Source: Aminomonas paucivorans DSM 12260 (GTDB taxonomy: Bacteria > Synergistota > Synergistia > Synergistales > Synergistaceae). From it: DNA of 64,000 nucleotides. The stretch spans positions 744,001 to 808,000 of the forward strand of contig NZ_CM001022.1 in the NCBI RefSeq assembly GCF_000165795.1. The letters run 5' to 3'. This document shows, one piece after another, positions 11,427 through 26,408 of this stretch. A program made the translations under genes and the position numbers. Within the stretch, counting starts at the first letter, position 1. Every line of letters starts with the position of its first letter. The notes beneath the pieces were generated by a model. The model was not told the DNA's origin. It did no database searches and saw only the letters and a list, made by a program, of their open reading frames with translations.

Positions 11427-11555
11427 AAGACGAAGTATTCCCTAATCCATCCTCCGAGCTGCGGTGCCTAAAGACGTGAGGTCCAGGGTTCGCAGCCGTC
11501 TAGGGTGTCCCTGGAAACGGGGGTGCCTCCCTTCCGGAAAGGAGGACGGCAATCC

Positions 11556-12266
11556 ATGCCTGTGCTGGAAGCGCTCATCGCCGAGGCGGACCCGATGCTT
11601 CGTTCCCTCTACGCCGAATACCTGTCCCGGACCCGGGGCTACTGCCTCGGCGGCTACGCCACCTCGGGGCCGGAGCTGTTTCGCTGTCTCCAGAATCGGC
11701 GTCCCGCCCTGGTCCTCCTGGATCTGTTCCTTCCCGAGTTCGGAGGCCAGGAGGGGCTTAGGCGTTCCCGGACGGAATTCTCCCGGGTGGACCATATCAT
11801 CCTCTCCGAGGGGGACGACCCGGACACGGTCCGGGGGGCCCTGTGTCTCGGGGCCTTCGACTACCTCATCAAACCCTTCACCTTCGACCGTTTCCACGCC
11901 GCCCTGGACGCCTACGGCAACTACTACTGGGGGCTGACGGGGCGCAAGACCCCCTGGAGGCAGGCGGACCTGGACAAGATCCTCCACGGCAGGACCGTCG
12001 GTCGAGGGGGAGAGGTGGGGATTCCCAAGGGCCTTCAGGAACCGGTGCTCCGTCAGGTGGTCCGGGTCCTGCAGGTGGCGGAGTGTCCCCTCGCTGCGGC
12101 GGAGATGGGGGAGCGTCTGGGCCTGTCCCGCTCCACCGCCCGGCGCTACCTGGAGTTCCTCGTGGAGACCGAACTGGTCCGGGTGGAACACGCCTACAAG
12201 GAGATCGGCCGTCCCCTGAAGCAGTACGTCCTGAAACGCACCGCCTCCCCCCTGGCGTCTTTCTGA
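11556..12266 (+). CDS. Response regulator, CitB/DcuR type (orphan)
   Basis: Two-domain transcription regulator, 236 residues. The receiver domain (about 1-125) has the acidic pair near the N-terminus, the phospho-acceptor Asp56 in VLLDLFLPE, and the conserved Lys in FDYLIKPFTFDRF. The C-terminal region carries a winged helix typical of the CitB/DcuR/MalR family (LGLSRSTARRYLEFLVETELVRVEH, then GRPLKQYVL). Such regulators usually sit beside a PAS-containing citrate/C4-dicarboxylate sensor kinase; none is here. The start follows AAAGGAGG; a longer upstream frame lacks such a site. Its neighbours suggest control of the two downstream aldehyde dehydrogenases, but this is inference. Confidence 0.88.
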   Translation: MPVLEALIAEADPMLRSLYAEYLSRTRGYCLGGYATSGPELFRCLQNRRPALVLLDLFLPEFGGQEGLRRSRTEFSRVDHIILSEGDDPDTVRGALCLGAFDYLIKPFTFDRFHAALDAYGNYYWGLTGRKTPWRQADLDKILHGRTVGRGGEVGIPKGLQEPVLRQVVRVLQVAECPLAAAEMGERLGLSRSTARRYLEFLVETELVRVEHAYKEIGRPLKQYVLKRTASPLASF

Positions 12267-12346
12267 AGGAACCCAAGCCGGACGAAAACGAAAAGGAGAG
12301 ATAACGGACAAAAAGGAGTAATGGTCCGAATTTCATCTCCATAAAA

Positions 12347-12361
12347 TGCAACATAGTTGCA
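12347..12361 (+). promoter_or_regulatory. Operator-like palindrome upstream of the P5C dehydrogenase gene
   Basis: TGCAAC-ATA-GTTGCA is a perfect 6+6 inverted repeat in an unusually AT-rich stretch between the response regulator and the dehydrogenase. It may be a binding site or part of the transcript start region. No protein can be assigned from sequence alone. Confidence 0.45.
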
Positions 12362-12376
12362 ATATGTTCTACCCTT

Positions 12377-12398
12377 CCTCCGTGAACACTCACGGAGG
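12377..12398 (+). promoter_or_regulatory. Hairpin covering the ribosome site of the P5C dehydrogenase gene
   Basis: CCTCCGTGA (12377-12385), loop ACAC, TCACGGAGG (12390-12398): a perfect 9-bp stem with a tetraloop. Its 3' arm contains the GGAGG that begins the GGAGGAGG ribosome site, which ends 8 nt before the ATG at 12409. It could limit translation initiation or act as a switch. Confidence 0.55.
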
Positions 12399-12408
12399 AG
12401 GTCAGGAA

Positions 12409-14037
12409 ATGAACAACGCTCTGTACAGTTTCTCTCAGCCCTGCAACGAGCCGGTCCTGGGATATCTGCCCGGGTCTCCGGAACGGGCGGCCCTGGAGGC
12501 GGAGCTGGAGCGCCAGAGCTCCCTGCAGCCGGAGATCCCCCTGATCATCGGGGGGCGTCCGGTGCGCACCGGACGCCTGGGCAAGGTCACCATGCCCTGC
12601 GACCATGGACACCTGCTCGCCACGGTCCACCGGGCGGGGGCGACGGAAGTGCGGCAGGCCATCGACGCGGCGTTGGCCGCTCGGGAGGATTGGCTGAACC
12701 TCTCCTACCACGAGAGGGGAGCCATCTTCCTCAAGGCGGCGGAGCTGATCTCCAAGCGCTACCGCGCTCTCCTGAACGCCGCCACCATGTTGGGGCAGGG
12801 GAAGAACGCCTTCCAGGCGGAGATCGATGCGGCCTGCGAGGTGATCGACTACCTCCGGTTCAACGTGCACTTTGCCTCCCGGATCTACGCGGACCAGCCC
12901 CTCATGGGGTCGGACAGCATCAACCGCATGGAGTACCGTCCCCTGGAGGGGTTCGTCTTTGCCGTCACCCCCTTCAACTTCACCGCCATCGCCCTGAACC
13001 TCAACCTGGCCCCTGTGCTCATGGGCAACGTGACGATCTGGAAGCCCGCCTCCACGGCGGTGCTGTCCTCGTACTACCTCATGAAGGTCCTCCAGGAGGC
13101 GGGGCTCCCCGACGGGGTGATCAACTTCCTCCCCGCCTCGGGAGCGGAACTCACCGAGACGGTCCTGGACGATCCGAACTTGGCGGGGATCCACTTCACC
13201 GGGTCCAACGGGGTTTTCAACGCCCTATGGCGGGGGGTGGCGAACCGACTGGACCGCTACCGCAGCTATCCTCGTCTGGTGGGAGAGACGGGGGGCAAGG
13301 ATTTCGTCTTCGCCCACGCCTCCGCGGACATCGCGGCCTTGTCCACGGGGATTCTCCGGGGAGCCTTCGAGTACCAGGGTCAGAAGTGTTCCGCCGCTTC
13401 CCGGGCCTACATCCCCCGTTCTCTGTGGCCGGAGGTGCGCCAACGGCTGGTGGAGGGGATCCAATCCATGAAGATGGGGGACGTCCGGGACCTGGACTGT
13501 TTCGTCAACGCAGTCATCGACCGCAAGTCCTTCGAGAGCATCCAGGGGTACGTGGAGAAGGCCAAGGCTTCCCCGGACGCGAAGATCCTGGCGGGAGGGG
13601 AAGGGGATGCCTCCACGGGCTACTTCTTCCGACCCACGCTGATCGAGGCCCTGGATCCGCGCTTCGTCACCATGGAGGAGGAGATCTTCGGCCCCGTGAT
13701 GACGGTGTACGTCTACGAGGACGAGCGCTTCGAGGAGACCCTGCACCTCTGCGACCGCACCTCCCCCTACGCCCTCACCGGGGCGGTGTTTGCCCAGGAT
13801 CGGTACGCCTTCGTCCAGGCCTGCCGGACCCTCCGGTACGCCGCGGGGAATTTTTACCTCAACGACAAGCCCACGGGGGCCATGGTGGGGCTGCAGCCCT
13901 TCGGGGGAGCCCGGGGCTCCGGGACCAATGACAAGGCGGGAAGCGGCCTGAACCTGCTCCGGTGGGTGAGCCCCCGCACCGTCAAGGAAACCCTGCTGCC
14001 CGCCACGGATTGGCGTTATCCCTACATGACCCGCTGA
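12409..14037 (+). CDS. pruA: L-glutamate gamma-semialdehyde (1-pyrroline-5-carboxylate) dehydrogenase
   Basis: NAD-dependent oxidation of glutamate semialdehyde to glutamate, the last step of proline and ornithine breakdown. It has 542 residues, the length of the ALDH4 branch. The catalytic Cys is in FEYQGQKCSAASRAYIP and the general-base Glu in LVGETGGKDFVF; AVTPFNFTAIALNL and the C-terminal FGGARGSGTNDKAG are characteristic of P5C dehydrogenases. The start MNNALYSFS follows GGAGGAGG; in-frame Met codons further up lack a site. No proline dehydrogenase is adjacent. Translation may be modulated by the hairpin at 12377-12398. Confidence 0.93.
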   Translation: MNNALYSFSQPCNEPVLGYLPGSPERAALEAELERQSSLQPEIPLIIGGRPVRTGRLGKVTMPCDHGHLLATVHRAGATEVRQAIDAALAAREDWLNLSYHERGAIFLKAAELISKRYRALLNAATMLGQGKNAFQAEIDAACEVIDYLRFNVHFASRIYADQPLMGSDSINRMEYRPLEGFVFAVTPFNFTAIALNLNLAPVLMGNVTIWKPASTAVLSSYYLMKVLQEAGLPDGVINFLPASGAELTETVLDDPNLAGIHFTGSNGVFNALWRGVANRLDRYRSYPRLVGETGGKDFVFAHASADIAALSTGILRGAFEYQGQKCSAASRAYIPRSLWPEVRQRLVEGIQSMKMGDVRDLDCFVNAVIDRKSFESIQGYVEKAKASPDAKILAGGEGDASTGYFFRPTLIEALDPRFVTMEEEIFGPVMTVYVYEDERFEETLHLCDRTSPYALTGAVFAQDRYAFVQACRTLRYAAGNFYLNDKPTGAMVGLQPFGGARGSGTNDKAGSGLNLLRWVSPRTVKETLLPATDWRYPYMTR

Positions 14038-14156
14038 CGCAGGAAGCCGTTCCCTTCCGTGGGGACGGCCTCTCGTTTTGTCCGAGCCGCTTCGCGGGAG
14101 AGGGCTGCTCTGCTCTCTTCAGTTGGTATGCAGAGATCGAGGGGGAGGATCGTACG

Positions 14157-15731
14157 ATGGGTACCACGACCATGACGAGCGTGCTGAGGGATTCCATCCT
14201 TGCGGAGGTGGGGTTGGAAGAGGTTCCTTCCGGGGCGACCTTGGGCGGGAGCGGCGGGTGGCTGGACGTGCACGGGCCGGAGCTGGTCTCCCGCTCCCCA
14301 ACGGATGGACAGGAGATCGCTCGGATCCGGCAGGCCGACGGATCCGACCTGGCTCGGGTCCTCGACGGGGCCAGGGAAGGGTTCAGGACCTGGTCCGCCA
14401 TGCCCGCCCCCCGGCGCGGGGAGGTGGTGCGGCGCATCGGGACGCAGCTACGCCGGTACAAGGAGCCCCTGGCCCGGCTCATCACCCTGGAGATGGGGAA
14501 GATCCTCCCGGAGGCTCGGGGAGAGGTCCAGGAGATGATCGACATCGCCGACTTCGCCGTGGGACTCAGCAGGCAGCTGTACGGCATGACCACCCACAGC
14601 GAGCGGCCCGGTCATCGGTTGTACGAACAGTGGCACTCCCTGGGGCCGGTGGGGGTCGTCACGGCCTTCAACTTCCCCAGCGCGGTCTGGAGTTGGAACG
14701 CCATGCTCGCGGGGGTCTGCGGGGACACGGTTGTCTGGAAGCCCAGTTCCCAGACCCCCCTGGTGACCTTGGCGGTGCAGCGGATCCTGGAGCCCGTCCT
14801 GGACGAGTTCGACCTTCGGGGTGTGTTTACCGCCGTCGTCGGTCCGGGGCGCAGCGTGGGAGAGGAGCTGCTTCGGTCGCCCCACATCCCCCTGCTCAGC
14901 GTCACCGGCAGCGGTTCCGTGGGAGCCCACGTGGCTCAGGTGGTGGGGGCGCGCATGGGACGCACCATCCTGGAGCTGGGGGGCAACAACGCCGTGATCG
15001 TCCGGGAGGACGCCTGCCTGGACGACGCGCTTCAGGCGGTCTTCTTCGGGGCGGTGGGGACGGCGGGACAGCGCTGCACCAGTACCCGCAGGGTGATCCT
15101 GCACCCTCGGATCGCCAAGCCGTTCCTGGACCGTCTCTGCTCGGCCTACCGCCATCTGAAGGTCGACCATCCCCTGTGGACGGACCCCCACGTGGGTCCC
15201 GTGACCACCCCCGAGGCCATGGAGGACATGGAGTCGGCCATCCGGGAGGCCCGAGACGCCGGGGGGACCCTGCTGGCGGGGGGAGACCGCGTTCCTGTGG
15301 AGGGAGCGCCGGAGGGATACTACATCCGCCCGGCCATCATGAGGGCGGAGAACCACTGGCCGGTGGTGCAGAGGGAGACCTTCGCTCCCCTCCTCTACGT
15401 CATGGAGGCGGAGAGCATGGAGGAGGCCCTGGCTCTGCAGAACGGCGTGCCTCAGGGCTTGAGCTCCTCTTGCTTCACCAATTCCCTGCGGGACGCGGAG
15501 CGGTTCCTCTCGGTCCGGGGGTCGGACTGCGGCATCGCCAACATCAACCTGGGGACGTCGGGAGCTGAAATCGGCGGGGCCTTCGGGGGCGAAAAGGAGA
15601 CCGGCGGCGGCCGGGAATCGGGGTCCGACGCCTGGAAAGCCTACATGCGCCGCCAGACCGTCACCATCCACTGGGAGGATGGTTTGGAACTGGCACAGGG
15701 CGTGGTCTTCAAGCTGCCCGGGGAGGCATGA
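14157..15731 (+). CDS. Aldehyde dehydrogenase, ALDH7 type (aminoadipate/piperideine-6-carboxylate dehydrogenase-like)
   Basis: NAD-dependent aldehyde dehydrogenase, 524 residues. The catalytic Cys lies in FFGAVGTAGQRCTSTRRV and the Glu in ILELGGNNAVIV, and the C-terminal GAEIGGAFGGEKETGGGRESGSDAWKAYMRR-type block (15567-15654) is typical of the ALDH7 (antiquitin/AmaB) branch, which oxidises aminoadipate semialdehyde in lysine breakdown. The start at 14157 follows GGGGGAGG. It lies 119 nt after pruA with no obvious terminator, so the two may be one transcript for amino-acid-derived aldehydes. Substrate is inferred from branch resemblance only. Confidence 0.85.
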   Translation: MGTTTMTSVLRDSILAEVGLEEVPSGATLGGSGGWLDVHGPELVSRSPTDGQEIARIRQADGSDLARVLDGAREGFRTWSAMPAPRRGEVVRRIGTQLRRYKEPLARLITLEMGKILPEARGEVQEMIDIADFAVGLSRQLYGMTTHSERPGHRLYEQWHSLGPVGVVTAFNFPSAVWSWNAMLAGVCGDTVVWKPSSQTPLVTLAVQRILEPVLDEFDLRGVFTAVVGPGRSVGEELLRSPHIPLLSVTGSGSVGAHVAQVVGARMGRTILELGGNNAVIVREDACLDDALQAVFFGAVGTAGQRCTSTRRVILHPRIAKPFLDRLCSAYRHLKVDHPLWTDPHVGPVTTPEAMEDMESAIREARDAGGTLLAGGDRVPVEGAPEGYYIRPAIMRAENHWPVVQRETFAPLLYVMEAESMEEALALQNGVPQGLSSSCFTNSLRDAERFLSVRGSDCGIANINLGTSGAEIGGAFGGEKETGGGRESGSDAWKAYMRRQTVTIHWEDGLELAQGVVFKLPGEA

Positions 15732-15750
15732 TGCGTCCGTAGTTCGGGAT

Positions 15751-15797
15751 GGCCGGCTGCGCCGACGACGATCCGGATCGAATCGGCGCGGTCGGCC
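15751..15797 (+). terminator. Hairpin after the ALDH7 gene, probable terminator
   Basis: GGCCGGCTGCGCCGA (15751-15765) pairs, with G-U wobbles, with TCGGCGCGGTCGGCC (15783-15797), and the loop contains the palindrome GATCCGGATC. A T-run (CTTTTTCTC) follows only about 20 nt later, so it is a strong structure but not a textbook terminator. Confidence 0.5.
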
Positions 15798-15978
15798 CTT
15801 CAGGTTCCCGAATCGGCTTTTTCTCTTCTGAAAGGTGGCGGCGGGCGTGCGGCGTGTGAGCCGGACGTCTATGGGGGATTGTCCGCCCAAAAACAATCAA
15901 AAAGATTCAAAAAGGGACGATTTCTTGTTCCCCCCCGCTCCTTCCCGTAGCATTCCAGCTAATCAGATCCCGCAACAC

Positions 15979-16140
15979 GCCTCCGAGCCCGGACGCCTAA
16001 GGGGCAACGCCCTACGGTGCCGGGCCAACGGGTCCTCCCGGAAACGGAAGGACCTCCCGCGTTTGGAAAGGGGGCACCGGAAGCACCACCTTCCCTCGGG
16101 GGTTTCGGCGGTCGAGGGCCCGCCGGTATCCTCCGAGCCC
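15979..16140 (+). ncRNA. Candidate structured 5' leader (possible Moco-type riboswitch) of the molybdoenzyme gene
   Basis: The 551-nt gap 15732-16282 contains no gene, an A-rich patch (about 15886-15920) and then a compact structured stretch. Visible pairings: CGGTGCC (16015-16021) with GGCACCG (16073-16079), enclosing GGTCCT (16031-16036) with AGGACC (16049-16054); a small AGGG/CCCT hairpin (15999-16012); CGGCGG (16106-16111) with CCGCCG (16120-16125). An 11-nt direct repeat, CCTCCGAGCCC, occurs at 15980 and again at 16130. A structured leader ahead of a molybdenum enzyme suggests the Moco/Tuco RNA family, but I cannot confirm the consensus by eye. Confidence 0.4.
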
Positions 16141-16282
16141 CTGTCCCTGCGCGACCGAAAGCGTGAAGCGGCGTTTCGATGCGGTGCGTCCTGGGGGCGT
16201 GCCGGCGCGGAGACGGCCTGCGGAGGTTCCGCCACGGAGGGGAACCAGGGTGAACCAAACGGGAGGGGAAGGGGAAGAAGAG

Positions 16283-19072
16283 ATGAAGCAGTACCATGTG
16301 AAGTCCATCCGGCTCAACGGCATCCCGCGCAAGGTGGTGGCGGATCCGGAGCAGCGCCTCATCCGGATCATCCGGGAACAGCTCGGCTTCACCGGCACCA
16401 AGCTGGGCTGCGGCGTGGGGCAGTGCGGGGTCTGCAACGTCCTGCTGGACGGCAAGGTGACCCGCTCCTGCATCACCCCCTGGAGCAAGGTTCCCGAGGG
16501 TGCGGACATCGTCACCATCGAAGGCATCGGGACCCCGGATCACCTCCACGCCCTTCAGTATGCGTTCATCATCAAGGGCGCCATCCAGTGTGGCTTCTGC
16601 ACCCCCGGCTTCATCGTGGCCGCCAAGGGGCTGCTGGAGGTCAATCCCTCCCCCACTCGCGATGAGGTTCGGGACTGGTTCCAGAAGCACTGGACCGCCT
16701 GCCGCTGCACCGGCTACGTGCAGGTGGTGGATGCGGTCATGGAGGCCGCCGCGATCCTGCGGGGCGAGAAGACCATGACCTGCCTCGACGAGCTCTACAA
16801 GGACGGGGACACCATCTGGGGCAGCCGCTACCCTCGCCCCAGCGCCATCTACAAGGCCACCGGCACCATGGACTACGGCGACGACCTCTATGGGAAGATG
16901 CCCCAGGAGACCCTCTTCGCCGTTCCCGTGTGCCCCGAGACCCACCATGCCCGGGTCCTGAAGATCGACTACACCGAAGCTCTGAAGATGCCTGGGGTGG
17001 TCAAGGTGGTCACCGCCGAGGACATCAAGGCCAACAAGGGGACCAACCGCATCCGGGGCCAGCAGGGTTCCGGCTCCATGTCCGGCGACGGCTGGGAGCG
17101 GCGCATGATCGTGCCCGAGGGCGACAAGATCCGCCAGTGGGGCGAGTGCGTGGCCATCGTCTGCGCCGACACGGAGCAGAACGCCCGGGCTGCCGCCGCC
17201 GCGGTGGTGGTGGAGCTGGAGCAGCTTCCGGAGCTTCTCCACGTGAAGGACGCCATGGCTCAGGGGGCCGTGAAGGTCTACGACGAAATCCCCGACTTGG
17301 CGGACATCCCCAACTGCTTCAACGTCCGTCCCATCATCAAGGGCGAGGACACGAAGCCCCTCATCGATAAGGCCAAGTACGTGGTGGACGACGAGTTCTA
17401 CAGCTCCCGGCAGCCCCACCTGACTCTGGAGACGGACTGCGGCTTCGGCTACTTCGACGAAGAGGGCCGGATCACCATCCAGTCCAAGAGCATCTGCGTG
17501 TACCGTCACCAGCTCATGATCGCCCGGGGTATCGGCATGGCGCCGTCGAAGATCCGCATCATCATGAACCCAATGGGCGCCACTTTCGGCTACAAGGTCG
17601 CCCCCACCAACGAGTTCCTCATCGCCATCTGCGTCATCGCCACGGGGCGGCCGGTGTACATGCGTCTGGACATGAAGGAGCACATCACCCGCACCCCGAA
17701 GCGGTCCCCCTTCCTCATGAAGATCCGCCTGGGGGCCGACGAGAAGGGCATGCTGGTGGGCGGCGAGCACTACTGGTATGTGGACCACGGCCCCTACTCC
17801 GAGTCCAGCCAGGACCTCACCAACAAGGGAAGCCAGTTCTTCATGGCCCCCTACCACCTGGACAGCGTCCGGGGCTGCGGCTACACGATCTTCACCAACC
17901 ACCGGTGGAGCGCCGCCTTCCGGGCCTACGGCTCTCCCCAGACCTATTGGGGCGGCGAGACGGCCATGGATATGCTGGCCCACGAGTGCGGCATGGATCC
18001 CTTCGAGTTCCGGGTCCAGAACGTCATCCGTCCGGGAGATTCCTTCGCCCACGGGCAGAAGCCTGAGGTCTATCCCTTCCAGGAGCTGATCGAGAAGGTC
18101 CGCCCGCTCTACGAGGAGGCCAAGAAGCGGGCCGCCGCAGGCAGCACCGAGGAGATCAAGAAGGGCGTGGGCATCTCCTTCGGCATCTACAACTCCAACG
18201 ACGACGGCGCCGACGACGCCAGCAGCAACATCGAGCTTACCAAGGACGGCGTGATCCTCTACAACACCTGGGAGGACCACGGCCAGGGCGCCGATGCGGG
18301 CTGCGTGGGCACCGCCCACGAGGCCCTCAAGCCCCTGGGCCTGCGGCCCGAGCAGATCCGGCTGGAGTGCAACGACACCGCCAAGGCCCCCAACAGCGGA
18401 GCTGCCGCGGCGAGCCGCTGCCAGGTCATGGTGGGCAACGCCATCGTGGACTCCTGCAACAAGCTTCTGGAGGCCATGAAGAAGCCCGACGGCACCTATC
18501 GCACCTACGACGAGATGGTGGCGGAGGGGATCCCCACGTTCTACGAGGGGTACTGGCAGGCCAAGACCCGTGACAACAGCGGAGAGGTCATCACCTGCAC
18601 CGGCATGGATGATACCACCGGGGAAGGCTATCCTTTCTCCAACCACATGTTCGGGATCTTCCTGGCGGAAGTGTCCGTGAACACGAAGACCGGAAAGACC
18701 ACGGTGGATCGCTTCACCCTGGCGAGCGACGTGGGGGCCATCTGCAACCTGGACGTGGTGGACGGCCAGCAGTACGGCGGTCTGGCACAGGGCATCGGTC
18801 TGGCCCTTTCCGAGGATTTCATTGACATGCACAAGCACAACAACCTGGTGGCCTGCGGGCTGCCCTACGTGAAGGACGTGCCGGACGAGCTGAAGCTGAT
18901 CCACCAGATGATGCCCCGGGAGTTCGGCCCCTTCGGTGCCTCCGGCACCGGCGAGATGCCCCTCTCCGCTCCCCATCCCGCCATCGGCAACGCCATCTTC
19001 AACGCCACGGGGGTGCGCATCAAGGAGCTTCCCTGTTCCCCCGACAAAGTCCTGGCGGGTCTCAAGAAGTAA
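16283..19072 (+). CDS. Molybdenum hydroxylase, MOP-type aldehyde oxidoreductase (single chain, no FAD domain)
   Basis: A 929-residue xanthine-oxidase-family enzyme with the order of Desulfovibrio gigas MOP. It has a plant-type [2Fe-2S] domain (Cys43, Cys48, Cys51 in GCGVGQCGVC and a fourth in TRSC), a helical [2Fe-2S] domain (QCGFCTPGF and CRCTGY), then directly the large Mo-cofactor domain with no FAD module. The putative catalytic Glu is in GASGTGEMPLSAPHPA near residue 891; FRAYGSPQTYWGGE is a substrate/cofactor loop. It probably oxidises aldehydes with a ferredoxin-like acceptor. ATG at 16283 follows a long GGAGGGGAAGGGG run. XdhC, Mo transport and a molybdopterin-binding protein follow, consistent with Mo use; substrate unknown. 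Confidence 0.92.
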   Translation: MKQYHVKSIRLNGIPRKVVADPEQRLIRIIREQLGFTGTKLGCGVGQCGVCNVLLDGKVTRSCITPWSKVPEGADIVTIEGIGTPDHLHALQYAFIIKGAIQCGFCTPGFIVAAKGLLEVNPSPTRDEVRDWFQKHWTACRCTGYVQVVDAVMEAAAILRGEKTMTCLDELYKDGDTIWGSRYPRPSAIYKATGTMDYGDDLYGKMPQETLFAVPVCPETHHARVLKIDYTEALKMPGVVKVVTAEDIKANKGTNRIRGQQGSGSMSGDGWERRMIVPEGDKIRQWGECVAIVCADTEQNARAAAAAVVVELEQLPELLHVKDAMAQGAVKVYDEIPDLADIPNCFNVRPIIKGEDTKPLIDKAKYVVDDEFYSSRQPHLTLETDCGFGYFDEEGRITIQSKSICVYRHQLMIARGIGMAPSKIRIIMNPMGATFGYKVAPTNEFLIAICVIATGRPVYMRLDMKEHITRTPKRSPFLMKIRLGADEKGMLVGGEHYWYVDHGPYSESSQDLTNKGSQFFMAPYHLDSVRGCGYTIFTNHRWSAAFRAYGSPQTYWGGETAMDMLAHECGMDPFEFRVQNVIRPGDSFAHGQKPEVYPFQELIEKVRPLYEEAKKRAAAGSTEEIKKGVGISFGIYNSNDDGADDASSNIELTKDGVILYNTWEDHGQGADAGCVGTAHEALKPLGLRPEQIRLECNDTAKAPNSGAAAASRCQVMVGNAIVDSCNKLLEAMKKPDGTYRTYDEMVAEGIPTFYEGYWQAKTRDNSGEVITCTGMDDTTGEGYPFSNHMFGIFLAEVSVNTKTGKTTVDRFTLASDVGAICNLDVVDGQQYGGLAQGIGLALSEDFIDMHKHNNLVACGLPYVKDVPDELKLIHQMMPREFGPFGASGTGEMPLSAPHPAIGNAIFNATGVRIKELPCSPDKVLAGLKK

Positions 19073-19170: not shown

Positions 19171-19590
19171 ATGGCGGAGATTCAGGGAGCGTCGGGCAGG
19201 CTGGAGGATCTTCCCCTGCACAACGCCTCGGCCCTGGCGCCGGGGGTGATCAAGCGCATCGTCTTCGGTCCCGGGCAGCATTGGGACGACTACGTAGTCC
19301 GGTATTTCATCCTGCCTCCCGGGGAGTCCATCCCTCCCCATACCCACGAGTGGGACCACTTCGTGGTGGCGGTGAAGGGGCACGGTCAGGTGACGGTGGA
19401 AGGAGTGCCCCACGACCTGCCGGAACTGTCCTGGGGACACGTCCCCCCGGGGGTGGAGCACGTGTTCGCCAACGTGGGGGATACGGACTTCGCCTTCTTC
19501 TGCATCGTCCCCACCCATGGAGACCCCCACGCAAAGAAGACCCGGATGCGGCAGGATCGGGCGGATCGGAAGGAGCGGGAATCCTCGTGA
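19171..19590 (+). CDS. Small cupin-domain protein
   Basis: A 139-residue single-domain cupin. Motif 1 is visible as PPHTHEWDHFVVAVKGHG (metal-ligand-type His, His, Glu/His) and motif 2 as WGHVPPGVEHVFAN, so it can probably bind a metal ion. Function is not predictable; such cupins often bind small molecules or metals beside amino-acid or aldehyde metabolism genes. It follows a GGAGAGGAGG site. Its TGA overlaps the GTG of the following aminotransferase, so the two are coupled and may act on related substrates. Confidence 0.8.
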   Translation: MAEIQGASGRLEDLPLHNASALAPGVIKRIVFGPGQHWDDYVVRYFILPPGESIPPHTHEWDHFVVAVKGHGQVTVEGVPHDLPELSWGHVPPGVEHVFANVGDTDFAFFCIVPTHGDPHAKKTRMRQDRADRKERESS

Positions 19591-20822: not shown

Positions 20823-21668
20823 ATGAATCGCGTCATGATGGACCTGATTCGGGAGGAACTGGAGGCGGGAGCGGCGGGGGTGCTTTGCACGGTGGTGGAG
20901 GAGGTGGGATCCACCCCCCGAAGCCTCGGGGCTTGCATGTGGGTGCGCCCTGACGGCAGCATCTTGGGCACCGTGGGGGGCGGGGTGCTGGAGTACCACG
21001 TCATCCAGGAGGCCCTGGACATGCTGGCAAAGGGGCCGGAATACCGACATTTCAGGGAGGCCCTGCACTGCAACGGCGTGGCGGAGGGGGAGGCGGCCTG
21101 CGGCGGCGAGCTGGCGGTGTTCCTGGAGGTGATGGGACGGGAGCGGGAGCTGGTGGTCTTCGGGGCGGGGCACGTGGGCAAGGCGGTGGCCCACATCGCC
21201 GCGGCGGCGGGTTTCCGGGTCACCGTGTGGGACGAGCGGGAGGAATTCGCCAACCCCGAGAACATCCCCTGGGGGCGCACCGTGGCCTGTCCCCTGGACC
21301 GCATCGCAGAGGAAGGGATCCGCTTCCACGACCGGACCTTCGTGGTGGTGGCCACCCGGGGGCACGCCCTGGACGCGGCGGTGGTGAAGGCCCTGGAGGG
21401 AACTGTCACGGCCTACAAGGGCCTCATCGGATCCCGCAAGAAGATCGATGTGGTGCGCTGTAACCTGATCCGGGAAGGGGTGGCGGCGGCGTACCTGGAC
21501 GGCATTTTTCAGCCCGTGGGCCTGCCCATCCGGGCGGAGACTCCGGAGGAGATCGGCGTCTCCGTGGTGGCGGAGCTGATCGCGGTGAGCCGCCGGGGGG
21601 ACCTGAAGAACCTGCGCCGGGCCCTCTCGGAGGACGGGGGATTCCCGATCTATCCGCGATTTGAATAG
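20823..21668 (+). CDS. xdhC: XdhC/CoxI-family molybdoenzyme maturation factor
   Basis: A 281-residue protein. The N-terminal XdhC_CoxI segment has VEEVGSTPRSLGACMWV and GTVGGGVLEYHVIQ, and a C-terminal Rossmann-like domain has VVFGAGHVGKAVAHIAAAAGF and YKGLIGSRKKIDVV. XdhC proteins bind molybdenum cofactor, protect its sulfurated form and insert it into xanthine-oxidase-family enzymes. The MOP-type enzyme upstream is the obvious client. It lies 60 nt after the aminotransferase, probably in the same transcript, and is followed by a strong hairpin. Confidence 0.92.
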   Translation: MNRVMMDLIREELEAGAAGVLCTVVEEVGSTPRSLGACMWVRPDGSILGTVGGGVLEYHVIQEALDMLAKGPEYRHFREALHCNGVAEGEAACGGELAVFLEVMGRERELVVFGAGHVGKAVAHIAAAAGFRVTVWDEREEFANPENIPWGRTVACPLDRIAEEGIRFHDRTFVVVATRGHALDAAVVKALEGTVTAYKGLIGSRKKIDVVRCNLIREGVAAAYLDGIFQPVGLPIRAETPEEIGVSVVAELIAVSRRGDLKNLRRALSEDGGFPIYPRFE

Positions 21669-21879: not shown

Positions 21880-22605
21880 ATGAGGCTCAGGGGAATGCTG
21901 TGGGGCATGGTGGCGCTGTTGGTGGGATGCTCCGGCCCCGCCTACGCGGAGGAGGGCATCGTGGCGGTTTCGGCGGGGATTGCGTCCTGTGTGGAGAACC
22001 TGATCCAGGCCTATGCGGTTCAGGGGGGCAAGCCCTTGACCCTGGTGCGGGAGTCCACCGGAACCATCGCCCGGCAGATGGACCAGGGAGCGCCCTACGA
22101 CGTGCTGGTGGCGGCGGATCCGGAGTGGCCCCAGTGGCTTGCGGGGCGGGGCAAGCTGAAGGCCGCCGCTCCCTGCGCCCGGGGGCAGATGGTGGTCTGG
22201 GTGGCGTCGGGAGAACCCCCTCGCCTGGAGGACCTGGGGAAGATCGTCCTGGCCTGCCCCGACCCGGAGTCCACCTCCCACGGGAAACTGGCTCGGAAGT
22301 TCCTCCAGGACCGCAAGCTTTGGGATGCGGGCAAGCGAAACGGCAGGATCCTGGTGGTGGCCAACGCGGTCCAGGGAGTCATGACCGTCAAGGGAGGCAC
22401 GGCCAAGGCTGCCCTGATGCCCCTGGCCCTCGCCCTGGGGAGCAAGGGGGCCTACCGGGAGCTTCCGGGGACGGAAATCCCCACGGTGGCGGGGTTGGGG
22501 GCGAATTCCACGAACCCCAACGCCAAGGCCTTCCTGGCCTTCCTCCGTTCCGACGGCGCCGCTCCCATCTGGCGGCAGTGGGGATTCTCCGTGGCAAAGC
22601 CATGA
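21880..22605 (+). CDS. Periplasmic ModA-like (molybdate/tungstate-type) binding protein without its own permease
   Basis: A 241-residue class II solute-binding protein. The N-terminus has a hydrophobic leader with a possible lipobox (LLVGC) but also an AYA-type signal-peptidase site. ModA features: AVSAGIASCVENLIQAYA, the second ligand loop ESTGTIARQMDQGAPYDVLVAAD, and ACPDPESTSHGKLARKFL. It resembles the ModA at 23854 in layout but is diverged, and no permease or ATPase follows directly; the next gene, overlapping by ATGA, is a Fur-family regulator. It could be an alternative receptor for ModBC or a metal/oxyanion sensor. Start follows GGGGAGG. Confidence 0.82.
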   Translation: MRLRGMLWGMVALLVGCSGPAYAEEGIVAVSAGIASCVENLIQAYAVQGGKPLTLVRESTGTIARQMDQGAPYDVLVAADPEWPQWLAGRGKLKAAAPCARGQMVVWVASGEPPRLEDLGKIVLACPDPESTSHGKLARKFLQDRKLWDAGKRNGRILVVANAVQGVMTVKGGTAKAALMPLALALGSKGAYRELPGTEIPTVAGLGANSTNPNAKAFLAFLRSDGAAPIWRQWGFSVAKP

Positions 22606-23042: not shown

Positions 23043-23791
23043 GGGCTGCGAAGCGTCGCATGGAGGAGATCCTCCGGGACCACCCGGAGATTCGGGAGGG
23101 TTCGGCCCCCTTGGAGATTCGGACGCTTTCCCCCCAGGAAGCCTTGGGGGACCCGGAGGGCCGGGACGAATTCCCCCTGATCCGGGGCAAGGAAAAACTG
23201 GTGGAGGCCACCTACGAAGGACAGGTGGGGCAGGCCTTCACCGCCTGTCCCTCCTCCTGGAGCGGAACGGTGGGGGAATGGTTGCGCCTGGATCCGGAGG
23301 ATCTGGCGGAATGCCCCCTGGTGCTGTCGGGCCTCAACGCGCTGGCTCGCCACCTGGGGTTGGTGACGGAGGCCACCCGGCACTGTCGGGACGAAGGCCC
23401 CGCACAATGCGCCAAGACCATGGAAGGGCGCATCCGGGAGCGCCTGGGGGAGGAAGGCTGTCTCCTGCAGGTGGGGCTTCAGCCTGCCATCCTGAAGGCG
23501 GCGGTGCGGGCCTTGGGGCCTGCCCGGGTTCGGGTGCTGGACCTCCAGCCGGAAAACGTGGGGCGGAAGGTGGAGGGCGTCCTGATTCGGGACGGGGAGC
23601 ACGATTTTGAGGAATCCCTGTGGGGGGTCCGTCTCGTTCTGGTCACCGGTTCCACCTGGGCCAACGGGACCTTCGGGGAGATCGCCCGGCGGGTGAAACG
23701 GGAGGGGGCGGACCTAGTGCTCTACGGCACCACCGCCGCCGGTCCCGCCGCCCTCATGGGACTGGAGCGCTGGTGCTTCGAGGCGGAATGA
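23036..23791 (+). CDS. DUF364/DUF4213-like protein (putative heavy-metal chelation family)
   Basis: A 251-residue cytoplasmic protein. The C-terminal half has the Rossmann-like pattern of the DUF364 family: LLQVGLQPAILKAAV, VRVLDLQPENVGR, LVLVTGSTWANGTFGEI and LVLYGTTAAGPAALMGL. This family is found beside metal and molybdenum genes and has been suggested to bind heavy metals, but its function is not established. ATG at 23036 lies in the end of the Fur-like gene and follows GGGGAGG. It precedes the modABC set by about 60 nt. Together with the Fur-like gene it suggests metal-dependent control of this module. Confidence 0.7.
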   Translation: MLRAAKRRMEEILRDHPEIREGSAPLEIRTLSPQEALGDPEGRDEFPLIRGKEKLVEATYEGQVGQAFTACPSSWSGTVGEWLRLDPEDLAECPLVLSGLNALARHLGLVTEATRHCRDEGPAQCAKTMEGRIRERLGEEGCLLQVGLQPAILKAAVRALGPARVRVLDLQPENVGRKVEGVLIRDGEHDFEESLWGVRLVLVTGSTWANGTFGEIARRVKREGADLVLYGTTAAGPAALMGLERWCFEAE

Positions 23792-23853
23792 CCGCCGGTT
23801 TTCGGGGACCCGACGGCTGCGCCGGGATGACTACGACCAAGGGAGGTCCTGTC

Positions 23854-24606
23854 TTGAAACGTTCGGGGATGCGCAGGGGCGGTTGGGGATTCGTTCTGGT
23901 TTTGGCGGCGACATTGGGATGGGGTTTGGGCTCCGTTTCCCCTGCGGCGGCGGAGACCGTGGCGGCGGCGGCGAGCCTGCAGCCGGTGATGGAGAAGCTG
24001 CTTCCCCAGTTTGAAAAGGACAAGAACATGAAGTTGGAGGCGGTCTTCGACGCCTCGGGCAACCTGGCCCGGCAGATCGAAATGGGGGCTCCCTTCGACG
24101 TGTTCCTCTCCGCCGACGAGAAGTGGGCCCGGTACCTGGAGGAGAAGGGCAAGCTGGAGAAGGTCCGGGCCTTCGCGGAGTGTCCCCTGGTGCTCTGGTG
24201 GGCCAAGAAGGAGGCTCCCCGGATGGAGCTGATGACCGACAAGGCCTACCGGGTGGCCATCGCGGACCCCGAGACGGCCCCCTTCGGCAAGCTGGCCAAG
24301 AAGTACCTGGTGTCCAAGGGATGGTTCGATCCGATCCAAAAGCAGGGACGGCTCATCCTGGGGGGAGACGTGCTGAAGGCGGGGTTGGCCGCCAAGAGCG
24401 GCGGCGCGGATCTGGCCCTTTTGCCCCTGAGCATCGCCCAGAAGCTGGGAGGGACCTGGACCAAGGTCCCCGTGGCGCCTCAGACCCTCTTCGGGGGGCT
24501 GGTGGCCGGGCGTTCCGTCCTGGCGGGGCGGGCCTTCTTCGACTACCTCCGGAGCGACCGGGCGGAACCCTGCTTCCGCGAGGCGGGCTTCGAACTGATC
24601 CGGTAA
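23854..24606 (+). CDS. modA: Molybdate ABC transporter, periplasmic binding protein
   Basis: A 250-residue solute-binding protein with a signal peptide (basic N-terminus, hydrophobic core, cleavage after SPAAA). ModA signature regions: TVAAAASLQPVMEKLLPQFE, DASGNLARQIEMGAPFDVFLSAD, IADPETAPFGKLAKKYL, and the C-terminal LAGRAFFDYLRSD. It binds MoO4 or WO4; the two cannot be told apart here. The start is TTG at 23854 with GGGAGG seven nt upstream; the next Met would shorten the signal peptide. modB begins 10 nt after its stop. Confidence 0.9.
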   Translation: MKRSGMRRGGWGFVLVLAATLGWGLGSVSPAAAETVAAAASLQPVMEKLLPQFEKDKNMKLEAVFDASGNLARQIEMGAPFDVFLSADEKWARYLEEKGKLEKVRAFAECPLVLWWAKKEAPRMELMTDKAYRVAIADPETAPFGKLAKKYLVSKGWFDPIQKQGRLILGGDVLKAGLAAKSGGADLALLPLSIAQKLGGTWTKVPVAPQTLFGGLVAGRSVLAGRAFFDYLRSDRAEPCFREAGFELIR

Positions 24607-24616
24607 GCGGCCCCAC

Positions 24617-25261
24617 GTGTTTGCCGCCCTTCTCATCAGCCTGAAGGTGCTGGCCTTCACGGTCCCCCTCCTGGTGGTTTTCGGGGGGGGGATCGGTTGG
24701 CTTCTGGCGAAACGGAGCTTTCGGGGGCGGGACGCCCTCAGCCTGGTGCTTCAGCTTCCCGTGGTGCTGCCCCCCTCGGTGCTGGGGTTTTACCTCCTCT
24801 TCGGTCTGGCCAAGTGTCCCTTCCTGCGGGACTCCCATATCCTCTTCGCCTTTCCCGCGGCGGTGCTGGGGGCCCTGGTCCCCTCGCTGCCCATCATGAT
24901 CCAGGCGGCTCGCGCGGGGTTCTCCGGGGTGGACCCCCAACTGGAAGATGCCGCGCGCACCCTGGGGCGCACGGAGTTCCAGGTGTTCTCCCGGATCACC
25001 CTTCCCCTGGCGCGTCGTACCCTCCTGGTGGGGCTGGCCCTGGCCTCCGCCCGCGCCCTGGGGGATTTCGGCGTCACCCTCATGGTGGCGGGAAACATCC
25101 CCCTGCGCACCCAGACCTTGCCCCTGTACATCTACTGCCGGGTGGAGAGCCTGGATTTTCTGGGGGCCCACGTGGCGGCGGCGCTGCTTACCGCCGTGGG
25201 CCTGGGCAGCCTCTACCTGGTGCACCGGATGGAAGGAGCCTCTCATGAGCGCCTGGCTTGA
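24617..25261 (+). CDS. modB: Molybdate ABC transporter, permease
   Basis: A 214-residue inner-membrane permease with five to six helices. The ABC-coupling EAA loop is present: EDAARTLGRTEFQVFSRITLP, followed by ALASARALGDFGVTLMVAGNIP, which is strongly ModB-like. It starts with GTG at 24617, 10 nt after modA, with little ribosome site of its own, suggesting coupling. Its 3' end overlaps modC by 17 nt. Confidence 0.92.
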   Translation: MFAALLISLKVLAFTVPLLVVFGGGIGWLLAKRSFRGRDALSLVLQLPVVLPPSVLGFYLLFGLAKCPFLRDSHILFAFPAAVLGALVPSLPIMIQAARAGFSGVDPQLEDAARTLGRTEFQVFSRITLPLARRTLLVGLALASARALGDFGVTLMVAGNIPLRTQTLPLYIYCRVESLDFLGAHVAAALLTAVGLGSLYLVHRMEGASHERLA

Positions 25262-26408
25262 GGCGTCCCTTCAGGATCGCCTGGGGGACTTCACCCTGGA
25301 CGTGTCCCTGGAGCTGGGCCGGGAGGTGGGGGTCCTCTTCGGCCCCAGCGGGGCGGGGAAGTCCGCCTCCCTCCGGAGCCTGGCGGGGCTGCGTCGGCCC
25401 CGCAGCGGGTTCATCCGACTGGGGGGGCGGACCCTCTTCGACGCCCGAGAGGGGATCTTTCTGCCTCCCCGAGAAAGAAGGGTGGGGCTGTGTTTTCAGA
25501 ACCTGGCCCTCTTCCCCCACCTCACCGCCCTGGAGAACGTGGCCTTCGGGGTCGCCGGCGCGGGCAGACGGAAGCGGCTCCGGGCGGAGGAGTGGCTGGA
25601 CAAGGTACATCTGGAGGGACTGGCGGAACGTTACCCCGGACAGCTCTCCGGGGGGCAGCGGCAGCGGGTTGCCCTGGCCCGGGCCCTGGCGGCGGAGCCG
25701 GATCTCCTGCTGCTGGACGAACCCTTCAGCGCCCTGGACGGGCCTCTCCGCCGAAGCCTTCGCCGGGAGCTGCGGCGGCTCCACGAGGAGACCTCCGTGC
25801 CGTTGCTCTACGTGACCCACCAGGTGGAGGACCTCTGCGCCCTGGGAAGCCGGGTCTTCGTGGTGCGGGACGGTTCCCTGGCGGGGACCTTCCCGGTGGA
25901 CCGGCTCTTCGAGGCCGACGCGGGGGGGGAGGCGTGGAATGCCCTGGGCTGGGGGAACCTCCTGCGAGGGGACCTGGAATCCACCCGGGAGGAGGGCTGG
26001 ATCCTCAACGCTTCCTGGGGCGCCCTGCGCCTCGGGGCTCGGGACGGCCTGACGGAGGGGCCCGCCACGATCTTCGTCCCCTCCGACGGGGTGAAGGTGC
26101 TCTACCCGAACCTGCCCGTGGACGAGGAACTGCTGGACAACGTGCTGGAAGAGGGCATGGTGGAGGAGCTGATCCCCCTGGCGGGGGTGGTGCGCCTGGA
26201 GGTGGCCTCGGGAGGCAGGCTCTGGCAGGTGGAGCACCCCCGCTCCTCCCTCCAGCGGCTGGACCTGCGCCCGGGGCACCCGGTGCGCTTGGCGGTCCCC
26301 CCTCGAAGGATCGAGGTGCTTCGGTGCGGAGGGGCAACGGACGAATCGGGGGAGCCCGCAGGGCTCCCCATGGCCGAAGGGGCGTTTTGCTCCTCCGTGG
26401 GTCGTTAG
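25245..26408 (+). CDS. modC: Molybdate ABC transporter, ATP-binding protein
   Basis: A 387-residue ATPase. Walker A is FGPSGAGKSASLRSL, Q-loop CFQNLALFPHL, signature LSGGQRQRVALARAL, Walker B LLLLDEPFSALD, H-loop YVTHQVEDL. The C-terminal 130 residues after about 250 form a TOBE-like extension (VEELIPLAGVVRLEVASGG), as in ModC/CysA transporters, where it can bind oxyanion or regulate transport. Start ATG at 25245 follows GGAAGGAG inside the end of modB. Confidence 0.93.
   Translation: MSAWLEASLQDRLGDFTLDVSLELGREVGVLFGPSGAGKSASLRSLAGLRRPRSGFIRLGGRTLFDAREGIFLPPRERRVGLCFQNLALFPHLTALENVAFGVAGAGRRKRLRAEEWLDKVHLEGLAERYPGQLSGGQRQRVALARALAAEPDLLLLDEPFSALDGPLRRSLRRELRRLHEETSVPLLYVTHQVEDLCALGSRVFVVRDGSLAGTFPVDRLFEADAGGEAWNALGWGNLLRGDLESTREEGWILNASWGALRLGARDGLTEGPATIFVPSDGVKVLYPNLPVDEELLDNVLEEGMVEELIPLAGVVRLEVASGGRLWQVEHPRSSLQRLDLRPGHPVRLAVPPRRIEVLRCGGATDESGEPAGLPMAEGAFCSSVGR

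Follow-up and report, generated by a model that had tools for sequence, protein, structure and literature searches.

The analyzed window (the whole stretch of 64 kb) contains the gene of a molybdopterin-dependent aldehyde oxidoreductase (MOP), assigned by the NF045668 model and closely similar to the aldehyde oxidoreductase of PDB entry 1sij (E 6.2e-301). Upstream, two aldehyde dehydrogenase genes lie between the leader of this enzyme and a response regulator gene (Table 1). The second aldehyde dehydrogenase ORF, which ends at 15731, was assigned by blastp clustering with the first (cluster c28). For the regulator, the best NCBIfam model is NF007750 (DcuR) with 101.8 bits, below its cut-off of 262. 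Downstream of the MOP, a cupin protein, an XdhC/CoxI-family maturation factor and two ModA-type proteins are encoded, followed by transporter ORFs. The maturation factor is matched best by NF045664 (aldehyde-oxidoreductase maturation factor), also below the cut-off of the model. Between the upstream ORF end at 15731 and the ATG at 16283 lies a gene-free leader of 551 nt, as the preliminary description had stated.

Table 1. Features of the aldehyde-oxidation locus (positions in the window)
Feature	Position	Strand	Basis
Second RF01055 aptamer, P3-less	11440..11560	+	cmscan, 64.9 bits, E 2.5e-13
Response regulator, DcuR/DpiA-like architecture	11556..12266	+	PF00072 (8e-15) and helix-turn-helix matches (searched from 11559)
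Pair of aldehyde dehydrogenase genes downstream of the regulator	12346..15731	+	PF00171, 1.8e-98 for 12346-14037
Palindrome TGCAACATAGTTGCA, candidate operator	12347..12361	.	sole such site in own genome
RF01055 aptamer, P3-less, leader of Mo-aldehyde oxidoreductase	15969..16089	+	cmscan, 71.7 bits, complete model
P1: 15979-15984 with 16070-16075	15979..16075	+	covariance-model alignment
P2 with tetraloop receptor (CCUAAG 15996-16001; UACGG 16013-16017)	15987..16025	+	covariance-model alignment, compensatory pair types in relatives
P4 with GAAA tetraloop 16041-16044	16030..16055	+	covariance-model alignment, relatives
P5 (two pairs), then conserved GGAAAGG	16056..16066	+	covariance-model alignment, relatives
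Candidate switching region: pyrimidine tract 16086-16094; second 11-mer copy 16130-16140, extension to 16147	16085..16147	+	predicted alternative partners of P1 3' strand or purine tract 16261-16274
Shine-Dalgarno-like tracts for GTG 16250 (16235-16242) and ATG 16283 (16261-16274)	16235..16274	+	read from sequence
Molybdopterin-dependent aldehyde oxidoreductase (MOP), alternative start GTG 16250	16283..19072	+	NF045668, 1453.7 bits, cut-off 1100
Cupin protein	19171..19590	+	PF07883
XdhC/CoxI-family maturation factor	20823..21668	+	PF13478 and PF02625 above cut-off
ModA-type molybdate-binding protein	21880..22605	+	TIGR01256, 72.5 bits, cut-off 62.5
Second ModA-type protein (block 23620..26408)	23620..24606	+	TIGR01256, 109.5 bits, cut-off 62.5
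Permease ORF 24617-25261, then ABC-ATPase ORF to 26408	24617..26408	+	named from translations only

The Rfam cmscan of the whole window returned two matches above the gathering score, both to RF01055, the Moco/Tuco riboswitch. A Moco riboswitch had been suspected in the MOP leader and a covariance search against RF01055 suggested; this search is positive, the score of 71.7 bits being well above the gathering score of 36 bits (E 2.5e-15 for the 64-kb window). In the covariance-model alignment, the two copies cover the complete model (positions 1-135), and no core element is missing: P1, P2 and its tetraloop receptor (named after PMC2408646), P4 capped by GAAA, P5 and the conserved GGAAAGG are all present. 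The GNRA tetraloop and its receptor are thus both present in the leader, the latter as CCUAAG with UACGG. The P3 columns of the model are deleted in both copies, which are therefore of the P3-less form, as in the subtype proposed to sense Tuco, and do not carry the P3 of the Moco subtype. The gene context is that of the family as well, with the NF045668 enzyme and the XdhC-type and ModA-type proteins following downstream. The element at 15969-16089 is a P3-less RF01055 aptamer and a genuine member of a known riboswitch class, with Moco or Tuco as the putative ligand. The stretch from the aptamer end to 16282 constitutes the expression platform.

The real evidence for the riboswitch is not the outer stem and the repeat to which the preliminary description had pointed. 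The feature had been placed at 15979-16282; the structure is real, but the aptamer starts 10 nt further 5'. One of the stems drawn there (GGTCCT at 16031 with AGGACC at 16049) is indeed present and corresponds to the upper-middle part of P4. The stem said to enclose it (CGGTGCC at 16015 with GGCACCG at 16073) exists as a 7-nt complement, but is not an aptamer helix, since its formation would join the P2 3' arm to nucleotides in and past P1, a pairing absent from the covariance model. In that alignment, 16015-16021 are the receptor and the 3' arm of P2, and 16073-16079 the end of P1 and its flank. The 11-mer CCTCCGAGCCC does occur at 15980 and 16130, 150 nt apart, and covers the 5' strand of P1 and core sequence of the aptamer. 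As evidence by itself, however, the repeat is within chance: of 2000 dinucleotide shuffles made from 15979-16282, 148 contained an exact direct repeat of at least 11 nt, and the same held for 17 of the 210 304-nt tiles covering the window.

The copy of the 11-mer at 16130 could be the remnant of a second, tandem aptamer, a thought encouraged by the fifteen tandem pairs known from related tup leaders. We consider this very improbable. A permissive Rfam scan of 15600-16400, up to E = 10, yielded one RF01055 match and no second aptamer in the leader, the known pairs are 309-386 nt apart instead of 150, and the repeat is of the kind expected by chance. Sub-threshold Rfam matches near 15748 and 16143 in the same scan were taken as chance. 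The window leader contains a single aptamer and is not a tandem riboswitch.

The tandem RF01055 pairs themselves, with the spacing given above, precede TupA-type genes in 15 genomes (e.g. at L042, L046, L051 and L056). Their second aptamer has an altered core, with UGAA for CGAG and GUCUCCC for GCCUCCC, and a promoter-like TAGTGTACAATA is located between the two aptamers. The altered core was recognized by pattern in 17 of the 39 TupA-first matches and by eye in one (G005_C1_188126), and in no other class among 95 family or 47 order matches. It is possibly a variant with a different ligand preference.

For the covariation analysis, the family and order supplied 106 distinct P3-less aptamers (P3-plus, variant-core and short matches being excluded), which were aligned by sequence alone; the pairs of the window structure were then counted. 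Many compensatory pair types were found in P2 and P4, and the inner pairs of P1 are formed in 104-106 of the 106 relatives. The outermost P1 pair (15979-16075) is formed in only 58 of them, and two further pairs are likewise not conserved (15992-16020 in 45 of 106, 16001-16013 in 48 of 105). The covariation in these relatives supports P1, P2 and P4, and the RF01055 helices P1, P2, P4 and P5 are conserved with covariation. A lack of covariance support in homologous leaders had been named as an argument against a riboswitch; such support is present in the homologous aptamers.

The second aptamer of the window adjoins the response regulator. Here, a Shine-Dalgarno sequence (AGGAGG, 11540-11545) overlaps the 3' strand of P1, 10 nt before the ATG at 11556. 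Outside this family, the order has further riboswitch-led regulators of the same cluster (in G055, G063, G168, G176 and G179). The palindrome TGCAAC-N3-GTTGCA follows the regulator and in the own genome precedes the aldehyde dehydrogenase, not the MOP itself. Among 52 family genomes, the pattern TGCAACNNNGTTGCA was found in 26, versus 2 for the pattern read backwards. The site precedes the enzyme gene in 18 of the 52, usually together with a riboswitch-led regulator. A comparison of coordinates by hand showed it overlapping or directly adjoining the 5' end of the P3-plus aptamer of the MOP leader in 15 genomes, and in G046, G047 and G048 it is located 102-114 nt ahead of a MOP gene without RF01055 match. 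The palindrome is also present in 17 of 51 named loci, several of which belong to the same genomes as in the family count. In raw counts that ignore kinship, 19 of the 20 genomes with a riboswitch-led regulator contain it, compared to 7 of the 32 others; the one exception, G043, has no MOP-family match. The regulator may bind the palindrome, and the co-occurrence of the two suggests a two-tier circuit.

RF01055 has matches in 36 of 52 family genomes and 91 of 180 order genomes. The own genome (2.63 Mb, one contig) contains six. Besides the MOP enzyme and the regulator, these precede a FecB-type binding protein, a TupA-type gene, a TiaS-like gene followed by a molybdenum-storage-like protein, and the genes for a MoeA-like protein and a formate dehydrogenase (the latter named from its translation). 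The 95 family matches, own ones included, were read with their downstream ORFs, P3 being called by eye and length. The first downstream cluster is TupA in 39 cases, TupB in 2, the regulator in 20 and FecB in 2, all P3-less. MOP comes first in 18 (14 P3-plus and 4 P3-less, namely G000, G018, G028 and G039) and MoeA in 4, all P3-plus. Eight have other genes, one of these being P3-plus (G009, where MOP is the second ORF), and two P3-plus matches are directly followed by a contig end. None of the 47 order matches that were read, out of more than 150 listed, exceeds 135 nt, which is consistent with the absence of P3.

The genome contigs were also scanned for the enzyme, giving the 51 loci, of which 24 were run against Rfam. 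Directly ahead of the orthologous enzyme and on its strand, RF01055 was found at 8 of the 11 closest named Synergistota loci; L173 and L178 have none, and L181 ends at the contig edge. Outside Synergistota, only 1 of 13 MOP loci has it (L221, Peptococcaceae). A single change separates P3-plus from P3-less in the tree of 30 MOP proteins, where the P3-less leaders are represented by two full-length proteins (G000 and G018), the fragments G028 and G039 being left out and G007 labelled unknown. The window MOP sits on a long branch (0.34) and groups with the G018 clade (SH-aLRT 100).

Some of the other RF01055-led genes deserve mention. The FecB-type binding protein and a permease behind RF01055 (L007 6799-8048, i.e. 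C1:706799-708048 of the own genome, minus strand) may form a Mo/W importer belonging to a different transporter class; the same arrangement is also found in G018 and G063. Between two RF01055 aptamers, and adjoining the TupA-type gene, a protein is encoded (C1:729499-730326 of the own genome, L008 9499-10326) that is most similar to the beta subunit of the molybdenum storage protein (PDB 2ogx_B, E 3.9e-62; UMP kinase, 4e-07). Lastly, the moeA leaders L059, L084, L088 and L096 (G031, G038, G030 and G032) contain P3-plus RF01055 aptamers, 150-153 nt long and strongly divergent in the core, which precede MoeA- and AOR-cluster genes.

The suspected Moco riboswitch is indeed an RF01055 member, but of the P3-less form, so that its ligand may be either Moco or Tuco. 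Regulski et al. (2008; PMC2408646) proposed the tungsten cofactor as the ligand of P3-less RNAs; in that paper, the link between the P3 stem and the choice of cofactor is left as a correlation, and no later test of the role of P3 was found in the open-licence literature. Under this proposal, the P3-less RNAs of the window would shut off the Mo isozyme and the regulator once AOR-family enzymes, supplied with the tungsten cofactor, can take over the reaction. The tie to tungsten use made by these authors (PMC2408646) is joined here by the tup leaders, whose uniform lack of P3 agrees with it, and by the own genome, where an aptamer precedes the TupA-type gene (341 bits, below the cut-off of 400) and three AFOR_N genes are present. 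The window itself does not readily fit the rule, as its gene content looks to be of the molybdenum type: the NF045668 Mo-aldehyde oxidoreductase equivalog, the XdhC-family protein and two ModA-type proteins. Nor do the four P3-plus moeA leaders fit any better, each having an AOR-cluster gene behind it. Moreover, P3 is present in the leaders of the orthologous enzyme in one clade but absent in another, and P3 alone may therefore not decide between Mo and W. Tuco is a substantial possibility that falls somewhat short of an even chance, and Moco is slightly preferred as the putative ligand for the window operon. The presence of AOR was also tried as a predictor of the P3 type; AFOR_N occurs in 33 of 52 genomes and gave no separation by eye.

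With respect to function, the P3-less aptamer is in all likelihood an OFF switch of the Mo-aldehyde oxidoreductase leader, with a second copy on the neighboring regulator. At plentiful Mo (or W) cofactor, the aptamer would bind it and P1 would close. Segments that otherwise pair with the P1 3' strand would then be freed to block the ribosome-binding region at 16235-16274. The enzyme would be turned down at high cofactor, as would probably the maturation and molybdate-uptake genes behind it, presuming that the leader also controls the genes downstream of MOP. The 11440 copy would act on the adjoining regulator, with the Shine-Dalgarno sequence buried directly in P1. The OFF direction is suggested by relatives and by analogy to E. 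coli moaA. No terminator-like site was found in 15700-16400, and translational control is therefore inferred for the window leader. Upstream of the leader, no match to the sigma-70 promoter consensus could be identified, which counts against the model.

Folding predictions for the window leader lend weak support to such a switch. Without ligand, the model fold pairs 16137-16146 with the P1 3' strand; when the aptamer is enforced, the purine tract 16261-16274 is paired with 16086-16094 and 16138-16142. In unconstrained folding, P1 is not formed (probability 0.017). No statistically convincing switch model was obtained for this leader, as the model was matched by 11 of 120 shuffles and the P1-partner score by 78 of 500. 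Among 16 P3-less MOP leaders, the downstream partner of the P1 3' strand was matched by at most 46 of 500 mononucleotide shuffles in eight (G018, G028, G039, G066, G168, L177, L180 and L182). L174, L175, L176, L179, L217 and L221 are far from this threshold, the window stands at the value given above, and the P1 of G057 was mis-parsed (2 pairs). The comparison of minimum free energy folds gave no clear switching in most P3-less leaders.

Behind P1, terminator-like hairpins with T runs were found in eight P3-less MOP leaders of other families (L176, L177, L180, L182, L217, G057, G066 and G168; L182 is identical in sequence to G061). The 5' arms of these terminators resemble the P1 5' strand or complement the P1 3' strand, and in many P3-less relatives terminators appear to compete with P1. 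In L174, L175 and L179, a ribosome site rather than a terminator is found close behind the aptamer. Termination, either Rho-dependent or by a hairpin without T run, could likewise take the place of ribosome blocking in the window, given that most other P3-less MOP leaders read have terminators and that the leader between aptamer and start is long and GC-rich; the empty search of 15700-16400 argues against it, and we regard this as the less likely mechanism.

The predicted accessibility of the Shine-Dalgarno sequence was compared in leaders other than 11 that were left out, both window copies among them. In 12 regulator leaders, accessibility is lost when P1 is enforced (mean 0.114 versus 0.019 in shuffles, none below -0.1), so that the predicted direction is OFF or flat. 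In 13 MOP leaders, no consistent translational signal was seen (mean 0.014 versus 0.002), and a single translational rule for all MOP leaders is not supported. Two of the 13 fold in the opposite direction by more than 0.1, as an ON switch would, and raising the enzyme when its cofactor is available would be sensible for a cofactor-using enzyme. The terminators behind P1 in P3-less relatives, the Shine-Dalgarno sequence within P1 at 11440 and the OFF behavior of E. coli moaA (PMC2408646) all point the other way, making an ON switch improbable. In three P3-less MOP leaders (L093, G018_C94; L103, G028_C39; L078, G039_C18), a second TTGGAAAGG-like copy of the aptamer 3' strand lies at the Shine-Dalgarno sequence, the mirror image of the second 5'-strand copy of the window.

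Taking the OFF switch as the preferred reading, the window can be compared to known systems. It shares P1, P2 with receptor, P4 with GAAA and P5 with the E. coli moaA leader, as well as the context of Mo enzyme, uptake and maturation genes, and the 11440 copy also has the Shine-Dalgarno sequence inside P1 (PMC2408646). In contrast to moaA as described there, both window aptamers are without P3, and the 15969 leader has 194 nt from aptamer to ATG and no ribosome site in P1. The P3-less Tuco subtype of the same paper (PMC2408646) is resembled in the missing P3 and in an organism with a tungstate-type transporter and AOR-family genes. It differs in that the window copy stands before a Mo-aldehyde oxidoreductase equivalog with ModA-type proteins behind, and in that orthologous leaders have P3 in another clade. 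The related tup operons, with two RF01055 in a row in 15 pairs, are like the tandem Moco/Wco riboswitches described in PMC9481103, whereas the window leader has one aptamer and the second aptamer of the relatives has the altered core.

The riboswitch class is already known; it is the two copies, on a regulator and on its possible target, together with the variation of P3 on orthologous leaders, that go beyond routine. Tentatively, and with low confidence, these can be combined into a two-tier gate in Synergistota. One Moco/Tuco riboswitch would control the DcuR-like regulator. The aldehyde-oxidation operon would have the operator of this regulator (TGCAAC-N3-GTTGCA) at its promoter, and a further riboswitch copy would act on the Mo-aldehyde oxidoreductase transcript, with P3 not by itself deciding the specificity for Mo or W. 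If true, a single cofactor would be read twice along one pathway, and a cofactor riboswitch on a regulator would be paired with one on its probable target operon, which would be an uncommon circuit. In Synergistota, the leaders of the orthologous enzyme are of both kinds, P3-plus and P3-less, and the same genomes contain P3-less tup leaders as well, which provides a natural set for testing the role of P3.
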